DNA of 36,897 nucleotides from Candidatus Dojkabacteria bacterium. Its GTDB lineage: Bacteria; Patescibacteriota; Dojkabacteria; SC72. Made by a program: the position numbers and the translations under genes. The stretch spans positions 150,788 through 187,684 of the forward strand of contig JACPFP010000003.1 in the NCBI GenBank assembly GCA_016182915.1, given 5' to 3'. The notes beneath the pieces were generated by a model. That model ran no database searches and was not told the DNA's origin. It saw only the letters and a program-made list of their open reading frames with translations. Positions 17,379 through 21,814 of this stretch are shown one piece after another (the stretch's first letter is position 1; each line of letters starts with the position of its first letter).

Positions 17379-18419
17379 CTAAACCTTCGAGAATACGTTC
17401 GTTACAGTACTTATAATGTAGGTATCTATCTTTGCCAAAAGAAGAAGGAAGGATTTCACAAAAAGCTCAATCCCAGAATCCTTTTCTATCTCATCTTCCC
17501 TGTTAACAGAATCCGTAGCTCCAAGAACTGTAGTACCGTTTCCAAAAAAGATTAACTTTTCGTCATCTTCTACTACTCCAAGGACATTATTATCAAGGAG
17601 ATCATTCTGAAGAGCTTGCTCTTCTGTTGAAAGCTTTTCCGTGGTTATTAAATATGAAACTTCAGGGAAACTATCTGCTACATTTGTACCATTTCCATCA
17701 TTTGCTAATACCATAGACGAAGGGAGAAACTTAATTTGAGCAAGTCCAGAGCTTTTAGCTTTAAAGTATACTGTTCCTAGGGTTCCTTGAGCTTCCGTAA
17801 GACCGGGACTTGGCAATCCACCAGTTAATCTTACATACCCAATATCGTTGTTAATCTGCTTCTGAAGAAATACTTTAGCAAATGAATCTTTAATTGAAAC
17901 TTCAACAACCTCTACCTTATCTGGATTAAAACTAAGATCAGCCTGTACCACATTGATGGGGGTCTTTACCCCCGAGATGTCTATCTTTACAGGAAAAATT
18001 TCCTCCAACCTATATTGACCTTTAGAAGGTATACTGAAACTAACACTCTTATCCACTTCCTTTTCAAAAAAACCTGCTTCATTAAGTGCCCTTAATTCAA
18101 AATATACAATTAAGACGGAGATTATAGTTACTAGAAGAATCAAAAGGGCATTATAAGCTACAGATCTAAAGTTTTTAGGTTGACTACCAAACTGCCTAGA
18201 GACCTCATGCTTACATACCTGACAATATTCCCCCTCTTTTTTAAACCGACAAGAGAAACATATAGATAGTTTAGGAAAGAACATCCACCATATTGGATAG
18301 GCTATAACCAAAAACACACCTGATACAGCGAAGACATGTACAAGTACCCAAGAGAGGATTACATAGAGAATAATCCTAACACCTACAAGGAGAGGCCATA
18401 ATTTAGCAAAATTGTCCAT
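17379..18419 (-). CDS. Membrane protein with zinc ribbon and extracytoplasmic cohesin-like domain
   Basis: Domain order in the 346 residues: two hydrophobic segments (about 10-30 and 31-48), a zinc ribbon with C54xxC57 and C66xxC69, a third membrane helix (about 89-107), a cohesin-like beta-sandwich (about 125-260), a linker, and a last hydrophobic segment (about 318-338). The cohesin call rests on FPVKIDISG, VVQADLSFNPDKVEV, GYVRLTGG and LGTVYFKAKSSG, the order seen in type I/II cohesins. Start is ATG 18419, one base after the stop of the dockerin gene; an in-frame upstream ATG (18455) would overlap that gene. Cohesins bind dockerins, and one is encoded next door. Confidence 0.75.
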   Translation of the reverse strand: MDNFAKLWPLLVGVRIILYVILSWVLVHVFAVSGVFLVIAYPIWWMFFPKLSICFSCRFKKEGEYCQVCKHEVSRQFGSQPKNFRSVAYNALLILLVTIISVLIVYFELRALNEAGFFEKEVDKSVSFSIPSKGQYRLEEIFPVKIDISGVKTPINVVQADLSFNPDKVEVVEVSIKDSFAKVFLQKQINNDIGYVRLTGGLPSPGLTEAQGTLGTVYFKAKSSGLAQIKFLPSSMVLANDGNGTNVADSFPEVSYLITTEKLSTEEQALQNDLLDNNVLGVVEDDEKLIFFGNGTTVLGATDSVNREDEIEKDSGIELFVKSFLLLLAKIDTYIISTVTNVFSKV

Positions 18420-18420
18420 A

Positions 18421-19020
18421 CTATTCAGAATAATATAATGAAATAGATAAATCAACTAGATTACAACGATTATCATTATTAATATCACAAAGAGAGTAGC
18501 TTGAGTCCGAGTTGTCTATCCTTTCATATATGTATTCGTTCCATACCCGTACCCACGTCTTTATAAAGTTTACAAATTCATCATTGACAATAAGACCGTC
18601 TCTATCAAGATCAAAAAGTCTCATAATAATAGGTAGTCTTAGTGCAGGGTTCTGTACAGGAAGGAATGGGTTAACAGATACTACAGGGGGAGTTTCATTA
18701 TTCCCCTCCTCTGGTGGTGTAGGCGGTTCTAAAGGAATAACAGGGACGCAAGTGAGCATATCATACTCACAAGCAATATCGCACGTTGTAGTACCAGTGT
18801 AAGACCCAATATCAGAGCATTGGAAAATTTCCTGATATTGAGGTTCACAATCCTCACTCCCTTCAACAATTCCATCTCCACATAAGCTTAGCTTAACATT
18901 AGAATCTATGCCCACTTCCGTTGCGGCATATGAAAAAAGTGAAAACAGAGAGAATATGGTAAAAAACACAATTAAGGCAATAAGTATCTTAATTGTTTCC
19001 CTCCATTGGTGTATAACCAT
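18421..19020 (-). CDS. Exported dockerin protein with cysteine-rich module
   Basis: This 199-residue protein has an N-terminal membrane or signal segment (about 11-32), a cysteine-rich module (CGDGIVEGSEDCE at 47-59, more Cys to 91) like the DUF4215 type, a Pro-rich linker (93-125), and a C-terminal dockerin. Dockerin repeat 1 is D137-x-D139-x-D141-G with E148 closing the loop. Repeat 2 is D179-x-N181-x-D183 with N187 and D190. The spacing matches the two calcium-binding loops of type I dockerins. It lies 5 nt after the upstream gene and directly before the cohesin gene. A calcium-dependent pairing with that cohesin is inferred. Confidence 0.78.
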   Translation of the reverse strand: MVIHQWRETIKILIALIVFFTIFSLFSLFSYAATEVGIDSNVKLSLCGDGIVEGSEDCEPQYQEIFQCSDIGSYTGTTTCDIACEYDMLTCVPVIPLEPPTPPEEGNNETPPVVSVNPFLPVQNPALRLPIIMRLFDLDRDGLIVNDEFVNFIKTWVRVWNEYIYERIDNSDSSYSLCDINNDNRCNLVDLSISLYYSE

Positions 19021-19025
19021 TAAAA

Positions 19026-19634
19026 CTATCTCGATTCATTTGATTTTTTTGGTTTAAGTTCAATTTTTATATAATTTCTACCCACCAAATATAGGACTAC
19101 GAGCGCAAAAGCGCCGGCGACTCTTTCAGTCCAAGGAGAATATAAATTCCAAAGTGATAGTAATCGATAGTATATACCTATGAAAATATTGGCGGGAGCG
19201 ACTTCAAAGTACAGCTTTGCTGCAGCAGCTATTCCAACTGAGGAGCTACCCTCTTCATTTTCCTTTATGGGAGATGCCTCAAGAAAGGCAAAATACTCCC
19301 CTGGAACAACCTTAAGTGGAAGTTCTATTGTCATTTTAACAATCTGAACTTCACCAGGTTTTAAATTAAACTTCTGAGGCTCGAATTTAATCCACTCCTT
19401 TGCAGGTTTTAATTCTGATTGATTTTCGTGATATGAGACGGATACTTGATATGCAGAATCCACATCTCCTGTATTAACTACAGAAAGCGGAGGGAGCTCA
19501 TATATGATACCTGGTTTTAAGTCTGCATCTACGCGTATTTTTCCCGTACCTATTCCTACTCCTAGCTTTGCATATAAAGGAAGAGACGATGTAAGAAGTA
19601 CTAACAGAGCAAATAGAATCCAAATTTTCTTCAT
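19026..19634 (-). CDS. Exported beta-sandwich protein with C-terminal membrane anchor (DUF916-like)
   Basis: This 202-residue protein has a signal peptide (1-22), one Ig-like beta-sandwich (about 30-150), a hydrophobic helix near residues 170-190, and a basic C-terminal tail. The pattern LPPLSVVNTGD, FNLKPGEVQIVKMTIELP, VVPGEYFAFLEA resembles the extracellular domain of DUF916/WxL-interacting proteins and COG1470-type proteins. In Firmicutes such proteins sit in operons with WxL-domain proteins and hold them at the wall; the neighbour upstream may play that role here. It is second in a four-gene group; no Shine-Dalgarno site is visible. Confidence 0.62.
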   Translation of the reverse strand: MKKIWILFALLVLLTSSLPLYAKLGVGIGTGKIRVDADLKPGIIYELPPLSVVNTGDVDSAYQVSVSYHENQSELKPAKEWIKFEPQKFNLKPGEVQIVKMTIELPLKVVPGEYFAFLEASPIKENEEGSSSVGIAAAAKLYFEVAPANIFIGIYYRLLSLWNLYSPWTERVAGAFALVVLYLVGRNYIKIELKPKKSNESR

Positions 19635-19653
19635 AAGAACAGACTAAATGTTA

Positions 19654-20163
19654 TTACGGCAGTGATACCAAGACCATTACACCTACATTCTGTGAAGTAA
19701 AGTTGGTAGAAACAGTTGGAGTTGTAAGGTATAGATCCAAGTTTACAGTTCCACTTGCAGCAACACTATTCGCAAGAGTTGCATACGAAGTAGTCAAAGC
19801 AGTGTAGTTTGTAGGAGGTGTACCACATGTTGCAGAGCAGAATTTATGAACATAGGTATCCGAACCTGCAGTACCTGCCAAGGTCCAATTTGCACTATTC
19901 TGACCTTTAATATCAACATCAACCGTCACGTTACTATCATTTGTAACAACCTGTGTATCAGTTCCATTAGTACCTACAGATGTATTTGAAGCAAGTGTTC
20001 CATAAGCAATGGTTCCGTCCGCTACAGAGACAGAGATATTCTGTACGGTTACGGTCGCAGCAACTGACGCTTCATTTGCGGCATAGGTTGCAAAACCCAT
20101 AAACAAGAAGAGAAAAGCTAATAGAAGACCTGTTAAATGCGTAAGTTTTCTTGGGACAGACAT
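19654..20163 (-). CDS. Small exported beta-rich protein with TIAYGTL-type domain
   Basis: This 169-residue protein has a signal peptide ending near residue 28 (FATYA), then a single Thr/Ser/Asn-rich domain. The domain contains DGTIAYGTLASNTS, DTQVVTNDSNVTVDVDIKGQ, NWTL, YVHKF and a final strand NVGVMVLVSLP. The same order occurs at the C-terminus of the divergent glycine-rich protein (about residues 377-506), so the two share a domain. No wall-sorting motif or membrane anchor follows, so it is probably secreted or held by a partner. It is first in the minus-strand envelope group. The domain has no name I recognise with certainty; a WxL-like role is inferred from context. Confidence 0.65.
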   Translation of the reverse strand: MSVPRKLTHLTGLLLAFLFLFMGFATYAANEASVAATVTVQNISVSVADGTIAYGTLASNTSVGTNGTDTQVVTNDSNVTVDVDIKGQNSANWTLAGTAGSDTYVHKFCSATCGTPPTNYTALTTSYATLANSVAASGTVNLDLYLTTPTVSTNFTSQNVGVMVLVSLP

Positions 20164-20293: not shown

Positions 20294-21814
20294 ATGAAAT
20301 TCGTAACAAAAAAGCTCCTAACATTTGGACTAACGATAGTACTTTTTTTTAGTAACTGGTTAATACCTTCTGTCGTCAACTCCCCTATCTATAATGGCAA
20401 AGTATTGGCTGCAACAGAGACATTCACAACAAGTGGAACATGGACAGCTCCTACGGGTGTAACGACTGTAACCGTAGAGGTTTGGGGAGGAGGAGGGGCA
20501 GGTGGTGGTGCTTCAGGAAACCCAGCTACAGGCGGTGGAGGGGCAGGTGGTGCATATGCGATCAAAGTCATAACAGTAACTCCAGGTAATGGCTACACAT
20601 ATACTGTAGGCGCAGCCAAAACAGCCACGGCAACATCATCACAATCAGTAAACACTGGAAACCCATCTTGGTTTAGCACCACAGGGACTGTATATGCCCC
20701 CGGAGGACAAGGAGGTGCACCAATGGCCAGCAACAGTGCCAATGGTGCAGCAGGAACAGGGAGTAGTACAGGAGCGATTGGAGACACTGTTTATGCAGGT
20801 GGAAGCGGTTCAGTCGGAAGTTATACCTCCGGTTCAGGTTATAGTGGGGCCGGTGGTGGAGGTGCAGGTTCAACTGGAGCTGGTGGGAATGCCTCCACAG
20901 GTACTGGTGGAAGCGGAACAAGTCAAAATGGGGGGAAAGGAGCAAATGGTGTAGGAAACAGTAGTACCGGTGCAACTGGTTCTAACTACGGAGGTGGTGG
21001 TTCTGGGGGAAAGGCTAACAACACAACAAATCGTCCAGGTGGGACTGGGGCTCAAGGGCTAGTTAGAATTACATATAACTCTCCCCCTACTATAACAGTA
21101 GATACAACAGAATCTTCAGATCCTATTACAGTAGGTGATAATGTAACATTCTCTGCTACAGCGACAGATGCTGAAAATAATTGGTACCTTGCCGTTTGCA
21201 AAACCAACTCTATTACCGCTGGATCTCCCCCAACATGTGCTACTAGCCAAACATACTGTGTATCCTCTTCAGCTGTGGCTTCTGGGGCTCAAAATACCTG
21301 TGTATGGACATCAGATACCGAAGGCTCACTCAACTGGTATGCCTTTGCATGTGATAATGCCTCTGTAAATCCTTTATGCTCACCTGTAAATACAACCAAC
21401 TCACCTCTTCAAGTAAACCCAAGCACAATTGTTTCAATTACACTAACAACAGATGGAACAATTGCTTATGGAACACTTGATTCAAATACAGCAAAGACCA
21501 CACTTGATTTAACTGATACCCAAACCGTTCAAAATAACGGAAATGTAACAGTCGATTTAAACATTAAAACTTCGGCACCAAGCGGTTGGACCCTTGGAAC
21601 TAGTACAGGAACAAACCAGTTTGTTCACCAATTTTCAACTAACTCAGGAGGAGCATGGACATCCTTAACAACTGCAGATAGCTTCCAAACCCTATCCACA
21701 GGATTAACGGAATCAAGCACCCAGAGTTTTGATATGAAAATTATATCTCCAAATCCATCTACAAGTTCAACAGAAAAGTCCATTACCATAACAATACAGG
21801 CAGTACAGCCTTAA
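20294..21814 (+). CDS. Exported glycine-rich surface protein with TIAYGTL-type C-terminal domain
   Basis: This 506-residue protein has a signal peptide (1-40). An opening TFTTSGTWTAPTGVTTVTVE leads into a long glycine-rich region (about 65-255) of the type named glycine-rich domain in surface and phage proteins. Next comes an Ig-like segment (about 262-375) with pairs of Cys, then a C-terminal domain with DGTIAYGTLDSNT and NNGNVTVDLNIKT that matches the small exported protein encoded divergently. No membrane anchor or sorting motif follows. It is probably a structural or adhesive surface protein. G+C is locally high because of Gly codons, which also creates long spurious antisense frames. Confidence 0.8.
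   Translation: MKFVTKKLLTFGLTIVLFFSNWLIPSVVNSPIYNGKVLAATETFTTSGTWTAPTGVTTVTVEVWGGGGAGGGASGNPATGGGGAGGAYAIKVITVTPGNGYTYTVGAAKTATATSSQSVNTGNPSWFSTTGTVYAPGGQGGAPMASNSANGAAGTGSSTGAIGDTVYAGGSGSVGSYTSGSGYSGAGGGGAGSTGAGGNASTGTGGSGTSQNGGKGANGVGNSSTGATGSNYGGGGSGGKANNTTNRPGGTGAQGLVRITYNSPPTITVDTTESSDPITVGDNVTFSATATDAENNWYLAVCKTNSITAGSPPTCATSQTYCVSSSAVASGAQNTCVWTSDTEGSLNWYAFACDNASVNPLCSPVNTTNSPLQVNPSTIVSITLTTDGTIAYGTLDSNTAKTTLDLTDTQTVQNNGNVTVDLNIKTSAPSGWTLGTSTGTNQFVHQFSTNSGGAWTSLTTADSFQTLSTGLTESSTQSFDMKIISPNPSTSSTEKSITITIQAVQP

Follow-up and report, generated by a model that had tools for sequence, protein, structure and literature searches.

What does a Patescibacteria genome do with a cohesin and a dockerin lying side by side, the two modules best known as the hallmarks of the cellulosome? 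The question is raised by four adjacent genes, here called g1 to g4, in a 36,897-nucleotide stretch of DNA from Candidatus Dojkabacteria bacterium (GenBank assembly GCA_016182915.1, contig JACPFP010000003.1, positions 150,788 to 187,684 of the forward strand). This whole stretch is referred to as the window and all coordinates are its own unless a locus is named. The reading favoured here, to which we give a probability of roughly 0.7, is that the genes specify a calcium-dependent, non-cellulosomal cohesin-dockerin clip that would tether a non-enzymatic surface complex of the WxL/WxLIP type to the membrane. It draws on a cohesin fold in g4, dockerin-type loops in g3, a conserved operon and a relationship between g2 and the WxLIPs, all of them established by computation.

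The four-gene operon

The genome holding the window is small (0.89 Mb) and Dojkabacteria/WS6-like, and the closest named relatives that bear the operon are also Dojkabacteria/WS6. A preliminary description of the window, made from the sequence, had placed four genes in tandem here, and the open reading frames are indeed present, all on the minus strand, with gaps of 19, 5 and 1 bp. The last gap is the TAG-T-ATG junction between g3 and g4 that the same description reported; g4 is taken to start at ATG 18419, 12 codons downstream of the TTG at 18455 given in the list of open reading frames. Each of g1, g2 and g3 has a signal-type hydrophobic stretch at its N-terminus.

19654..20163, minus strand: g1, small exported TIAYGTL protein of 169 amino acids (aa), with a signal peptide, one beta-rich domain and a single W-T-L; found in the same position at 12 other loci
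19026..19634, minus strand: g2, short WxLIP-like protein of 202 aa, with a signal peptide, one Ig-like domain related to PGBD/DUF916, a short C-terminal hydrophobic stretch and a basic tail
18421..19020, minus strand: g3, exported dockerin protein of 199 aa
17379..18419, minus strand: g4, membrane cohesin protein of 346 aa counted from ATG 18419, from Pfam and the AlphaFold2 model

A search of NCBIfam gave no useful name for the operon proteins, and a scan for promoters and terminators returned sites no more numerous than in shuffled sequence.

A cohesin on a membrane base

The firmest assignment is that of g4. The Pfam cohesin family (PF00963) matches residues 128-241 with an E value of 1.4e-6 (28.9 bits against a cut-off of 24.1), and matches 17 of the 20 members of the g4 family. 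An AlphaFold2 model built with 20 sequences has a mean pLDDT of 79.7, rising to ~82-95 over most of the cohesin domain, and the best 35 matches of this model in the PDB by Foldseek are cohesins without exception (best E 2.1e-10; TM-score, normalised to the target, up to ~0.8). A sequence search of the PDB found no match with g4 alone and weak cohesins only with a larger profile. There are three hydrophobic peaks, two of them N-terminal and the third ahead of the cohesin. That g4 carries a cohesin is therefore secure, and from its sequence and model the domain is predicted to lie on the outer side of the membrane. The preliminary description had read it as an outward membrane receptor, a view that it would have abandoned if structure prediction gave no cohesin fold; the Pfam match and the Foldseek result both uphold it.

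18279..18410, minus strand: N-terminal hydrophobic helix or hairpin, residues 4-47 (KD19 peaks at 4-22 and 21-39; model helix 2-47)
18213..18260, minus strand: CxxC-x8-CxxC zinc-ribbon-like loop, residues 54-69, predicted to be cytoplasmic (weak DZR_2 matches in 5 of 20 family members)
18078..18170, minus strand: transmembrane helix before the cohesin, residues 84-114 (KD19 2.72; model helix)
17634..18044, minus strand: outward cohesin domain, residues 126-262 (PF00963; Foldseek)
17520..17585, minus strand: conserved pair of VLG motifs in a flexible linker, residues 279-300
17385..17474, minus strand: C-terminal helix of the model, residues 316-345

The two VLG motifs stand ~19 residues apart and are kept in most relatives, though they fall in the part of the model with the lowest confidence.

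The dockerin protein

The gene immediately upstream, g3, combines a Cys-rich head with a C-terminal module in which the preliminary description recognised a dockerin with two calcium loops. Both loops are there in the window protein.

18748..18888, minus strand: Cys-rich domain, residues 45-91, CGDGIVEG..C..C..C..C, with weak matches like DUF4215/myxo_disulf_rpt
18424..18633, minus strand: dockerin-like module, residues 130-199, matched by Dockerin_1 in 9 of 20 family members; its best three PDB folds are dockerins, not significantly
18577..18612, minus strand: first calcium loop, DLDRDGLIVNDE, residues 137-148, EF-hand-like and canonical in 15 of 20 family members
18451..18486, minus strand: second calcium loop, DINNDNRCNLVD, residues 179-190, dockerin-like and intact in 20 of 20 family members

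The nine family members matching Dockerin_1 (PF00404) do so at E <= 5, and the protein at locus L085 lies above the cut-off at 1.8e-5. The second loop has a Cys pair (positions -1 and 8 of the loop; 18451-18489, residues 178-190) that is found in 19 of the 20 family members and is not a feature of dockerins at more distant loci. It is possible that this pair forms a disulphide staple. The nearest solved folds for both proteins are those of CaCohA2-CaDoc0917 from Clostridium acetobutylicum (PDB 6kgc) and the type II dockerin 2y3n. Cohesin chains of the 6kgc series head the matches of g4, and the chain heading those of the g3 model, 6kgc_B, comes from the same PDB entry as a top cohesin match of g4, although it is not significant on its own. 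Sequence identity to these cellulosomal proteins is low, about 18-20%.

The EF-hand character of g3 admits another explanation, in which the pair of loops would be a calcium-stabilised fold or a sensor and would not bind g4; co-expression of both proteins would reflect membership of one surface complex, and the cohesin would bind a glycan or protein of the host. The C-terminal region of g3 does give profile matches to calmodulin-type EF-hands, its first loop is EF-hand-like, and some cohesins of the candidate phyla radiation in our phylum sample have no dockerin nearby. To our knowledge, moreover, the Cys pair of the second loop is not a recognised dockerin feature. Against this stand the Dockerin_1 matches above cut-off in several relatives, a tight dockerin-then-cohesin order throughout the phylum, and two natural experiments described below, in which the anchor is exchanged or dockerin and cohesin are lost together. 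We consider this explanation unlikely.

Conservation of gene order

A scan of genome contigs with the single proteins gave no match. Alignment-based profiles run against 84,980 species genomes gave 31 loci, in which gene order was mapped with hidden Markov models (HMMs). The full order g1-g2-g3-g4 occurs at 12 of the 31 besides the window (13 loci in all; g1 is split in L076), and at three further loci g2-g3-g4 is truncated by contig ends. At another four (L075, L078, L083 and L085) there are longer WxLIP proteins, followed by an Ig-like protein whose end is a dockerin of the g3 kind and then by g4. Leaving the window aside, 20 loci of the g4 family could be tested, and at 19 of them the cohesin gene has a dockerin gene immediately upstream. 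Patescibacteria that are more distant show a protein with a dockerin end and, after it, between one and four membrane cohesins; a WxLIP often lies upstream. This conservation of order rules out chance. It bears out the pairing of dockerin and cohesin in the preliminary description, for which unlinked genes in relatives were to count as a refutation: the genes are linked, with a single orphan g4.

The wider association points the same way. In a sample of 145 genomes from the phylum, 34 have a cohesin, 53 a dockerin and 25 both (Fisher p 9e-7, in a test that ignores the kinship of the genomes), and in 20 of the 34 cohesin genomes a dockerin lies on the same strand at <=6 kb from the cohesin. Only 7 of 32 genomes from the window's own family keep the system, so it has the status of an accessory one.

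The orphan g4 (L070, 1785-2873) has a response regulator/histidine kinase pair on one side and a signal-peptidase-like gene on the other. Such a neighbourhood favours a reading of g4 as a receptor, for signalling or assembly, instead of a passive anchor, with the docking of g3 relayed through the transmembrane helices to the cytoplasmic CxxC..CxxC loop. In favour of such a role, the polytopic N-terminus is conserved in the family and the loop keeps all four Cys in most of the 20 members; yet several members have lost the loop, and the conserved operon encodes no cytoplasmic effector. Signalling through the loop is possible, but it makes a weaker case than the anchor model and as the principal function of g4 it is improbable.

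Some further occurrences were seen in passing. Members of the g4 family at L080 (labelled Micrarchaeota) and L081 (Chitinophagaceae) are probably on misbinned Patescibacteria contigs. An unrelated dockerin protein lies directly upstream of a membrane protein of 740-746 aa at L117 (2848-5884, minus strand) and L118 (4303-7363, minus strand); the membrane protein of L117 is cohesin-like by HMM and that of L118 has no match, and this is apparently a second pair in the same genome family. The window genome itself encodes a second cohesin-like protein (L014, 1162-1848, minus strand) of 228 aa, which has a membrane helix at its C-terminus; its gene is flanked by two glycosyltransferase-like genes, with no dockerin seen nearby.

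Exchange and loss of the anchor

Two natural experiments speak to the function of the pair. Other Patescibacteria have operons with full-length WxLIPs (alignment A10; L115 and L116), which show the same succession of beta-rich surface proteins and WxLIPs as the operons discussed here, with an Ig-like protein downstream. In L075, L078 and L083, as in L115 and L116, the order is surface protein, WxLIP, surface protein, WxLIP and Ig-like (Big_6) protein. In the first three, the Ig-like protein has a dockerin end and g4 comes next, whereas in L115 (8588-9481, minus strand) and L116 (6618-7544, minus strand) it ends in a transmembrane helix of its own (KD19 2.7-2.8) and no cohesin follows. The N-terminal halves of the Ig-like proteins are homologous across the two anchor groups (BLASTP E 7e-15, L083 against L034). 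In a homologous position, then, there is either the dockerin-cohesin pair or a transmembrane helix.

The second case comes from one genome, G010, with three copies of g1-g2. One runs on into g3 and g4, and another ends at a contig end. In the remaining copy, on contig C55 (L063, 4978-6701), g3 has kept its signal peptide and Cys-rich head, has no dockerin, and is not followed by g4. Taken with the exchange of anchors, this indicates that dockerin and cohesin are gained and lost as a unit and that a membrane anchor can take their place, which supports an anchoring role for the pair.

WxL-type partners

The gene g2 was described beforehand as DUF916-like, and profile comparison agrees. The WxLIP PGBD domain in Pfam (PF06030) gives E 0.09, under the cut-off, for g2 itself; the g2 family profile aligned by hhalign with full-length WxLIPs of Patescibacteria gives a probability of 98% and E 1.1e-13 over 144 columns, and 8 of 11 of those full-length proteins match PF06030 (best 4.9e-13). 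Judged by these profiles, g2 is a relative of the WxLIP-PGBD (DUF916) domain. It has one Ig-like domain, and the second WxLIP domain, DUF3324 (HBD), is not matched. Its C-terminal hydrophobic stretch is short and flanked by Arg; although conserved in the alignment, it stays under KD19 1.6 in the protein of the window.

The standing of g1 is different. Pfam WxL (PF13731) matches 0 of 15 family members, hhalign against a WxL profile from Pfam-WxL proteins of the same phylum gives a probability of 15%, and there is one W-x-L (W-T-L) against the two of a WxL domain. A true WxL domain in the TIAYGTL protein is rejected on these sequence grounds and WxL is retained as an analogy only. The analogy is one of layout. 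The window genome has two genes with a TIAYGTL domain, both adjoining the g2 operon: g1 and the following, divergently transcribed gene.

20294..21814, plus strand: large surface protein combining a glycine-rich domain (PF21722) with a TIAYGTL domain at the C-terminus; transcribed away from the operon and probably the large partner of g1

Large TIAYGTL proteins similar to this one adjoin the operon at several other loci. In Firmicutes, the commonest WxL cluster comprises one WxLIP and two proteins, one small and one large, with a C-terminal domain in common (PMC10599100), and the present set has the same layout, although by sequence its common domain is not WxL. Found in both are a short beta-rich protein, a large protein with the same end domain and an Ig-like protein, WxLIP-like by profile in the present set and there with a putative C-terminal membrane stretch, all of them exported. 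The set described here differs from those clusters in that g1 is not WxL, g2 lacks DUF3324 and a dockerin-cohesin pair is added. On account of the layout the set is said to work like a WxL cluster, without g1 being classed as WxL. The resemblance to WxL surface complexes that the preliminary description drew is thus kept for the arrangement, in which one WxLIP is accompanied by two TIAYGTL proteins, one small and the other large, and given up for the domain itself.

Why this is not a cellulosome

A cohesin and a dockerin together suggest a minimal cellulosome-like system, with g4 as a one-cohesin anchoring scaffoldin on which secreted, dockerin-bearing enzymes degrading polysaccharides would dock, and the pair in a Shapirobacterales genome that expresses such genes has been interpreted in this way (PMC9123182). 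A cellulosome has a scaffoldin of several cohesins and dockerin-bearing glycoside hydrolases. Here g4 has one cohesin and there is no scaffoldin, the sole recognisable dockerin of the window genome is that of g3, which has no catalytic domain, the partners in the operon are WxLIP-like, and a genome-wide search for cellulases of glycoside hydrolase families 5 and 9 (GH5 and GH9) found none. The absence of cellulases asserted by the preliminary description holds for these two families; with one recognisable dockerin in the genome and no GH5 or GH9, its non-cellulosomal reading follows. Within the scope of these searches a cellulosome is excluded, and even its minimal form is highly improbable. 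At the Shapirobacteria loci L076 and L085, too, the pair sits in WxLIP-type operons.

Cohesin and dockerin modules outside cellulosomes are already known (Peer et al. 2009, cited in PMC9012536, which treats those of ANME archaea). Like the pair described here, these modules occur outside cellulose degradation and have been proposed to attach proteins to the cell surface. The present pair differs in being adjacent and part of a conserved operon that also contains WxLIP-like genes, in the polytopic membrane base of g4 with its Cys loop, and in the two Cys of the second dockerin loop of g3.

A proposed mechanism

In the mechanism that we propose, g4 would sit in the membrane and display its cohesin on the outer face, and secreted g3 would plug its calcium-loaded C-terminal dockerin into it. 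Physical binding of g3 to g4 and its dependence on calcium are inferred. Once g3 has docked, its Cys-rich head would be exposed at the top of a proline-rich spacer and would become part of a complex that also contains g1, g2 and the large TIAYGTL protein. Held by its own C-terminus, g2 would use its Ig-like, PGBD-type domain to bind the two TIAYGTL proteins, g1 and the one encoded at 20294-21814, and clip and WxLIP would jointly display the large protein. The complex may act in adhesion to partner cells.

Several observations weigh against this proposal. Dockerin_1 has no match in Pfam to the g3 of the window alone, the three dockerin chains found for the g3 model have E >= 0.88, and the first calcium loop is degenerate in 5 of 20 family members. 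The g4 of L070 stands by itself next to a two-component system, and the exchange of anchors has one transmembrane-anchored lineage, of two genomes, as its basis. On the WxL side there are the failed matches of g1, and the match of g2 to WxLIPs may in part reflect a general Ig-like/NPCBM-type fold.

A broader form of the proposal can be offered only tentatively, and we hold it open to real doubt: a modular Patescibacteria platform in which WxLIP-type complexes would be mounted on interchangeable anchors, either a transmembrane helix or a detachable calcium-dependent clip. In the g1-g4 type the dockerin loop would in addition be stapled by a disulphide and the membrane base would sense docking, and the whole would form a distinct class of attachment for contact with a host or partner.

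Significance for Patescibacteria

Cohesins and dockerins outside cellulosomes and WxL clusters are each known; what appears to be new is their union in one conserved operon, with clip and transmembrane anchor alternating, for which we found no precedent in the literature searched, the coverage of which is incomplete. One practical consequence is that cohesin and dockerin matches in Patescibacteria genomes should not be read as cellulosomes or as cellulose digestion. For these tiny and mostly uncultured bacteria, the construction of the surface and the means of attachment to other cells are a central open question. A dockerin-domain protein has been reported to be essential in a cultivated Saccharibacterium, where it has been assigned a role with glycans (PMC10633639), which brings the question within reach of experiment. 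For this question of surface and attachment, the four-gene set offers a compact, conserved and testable device.

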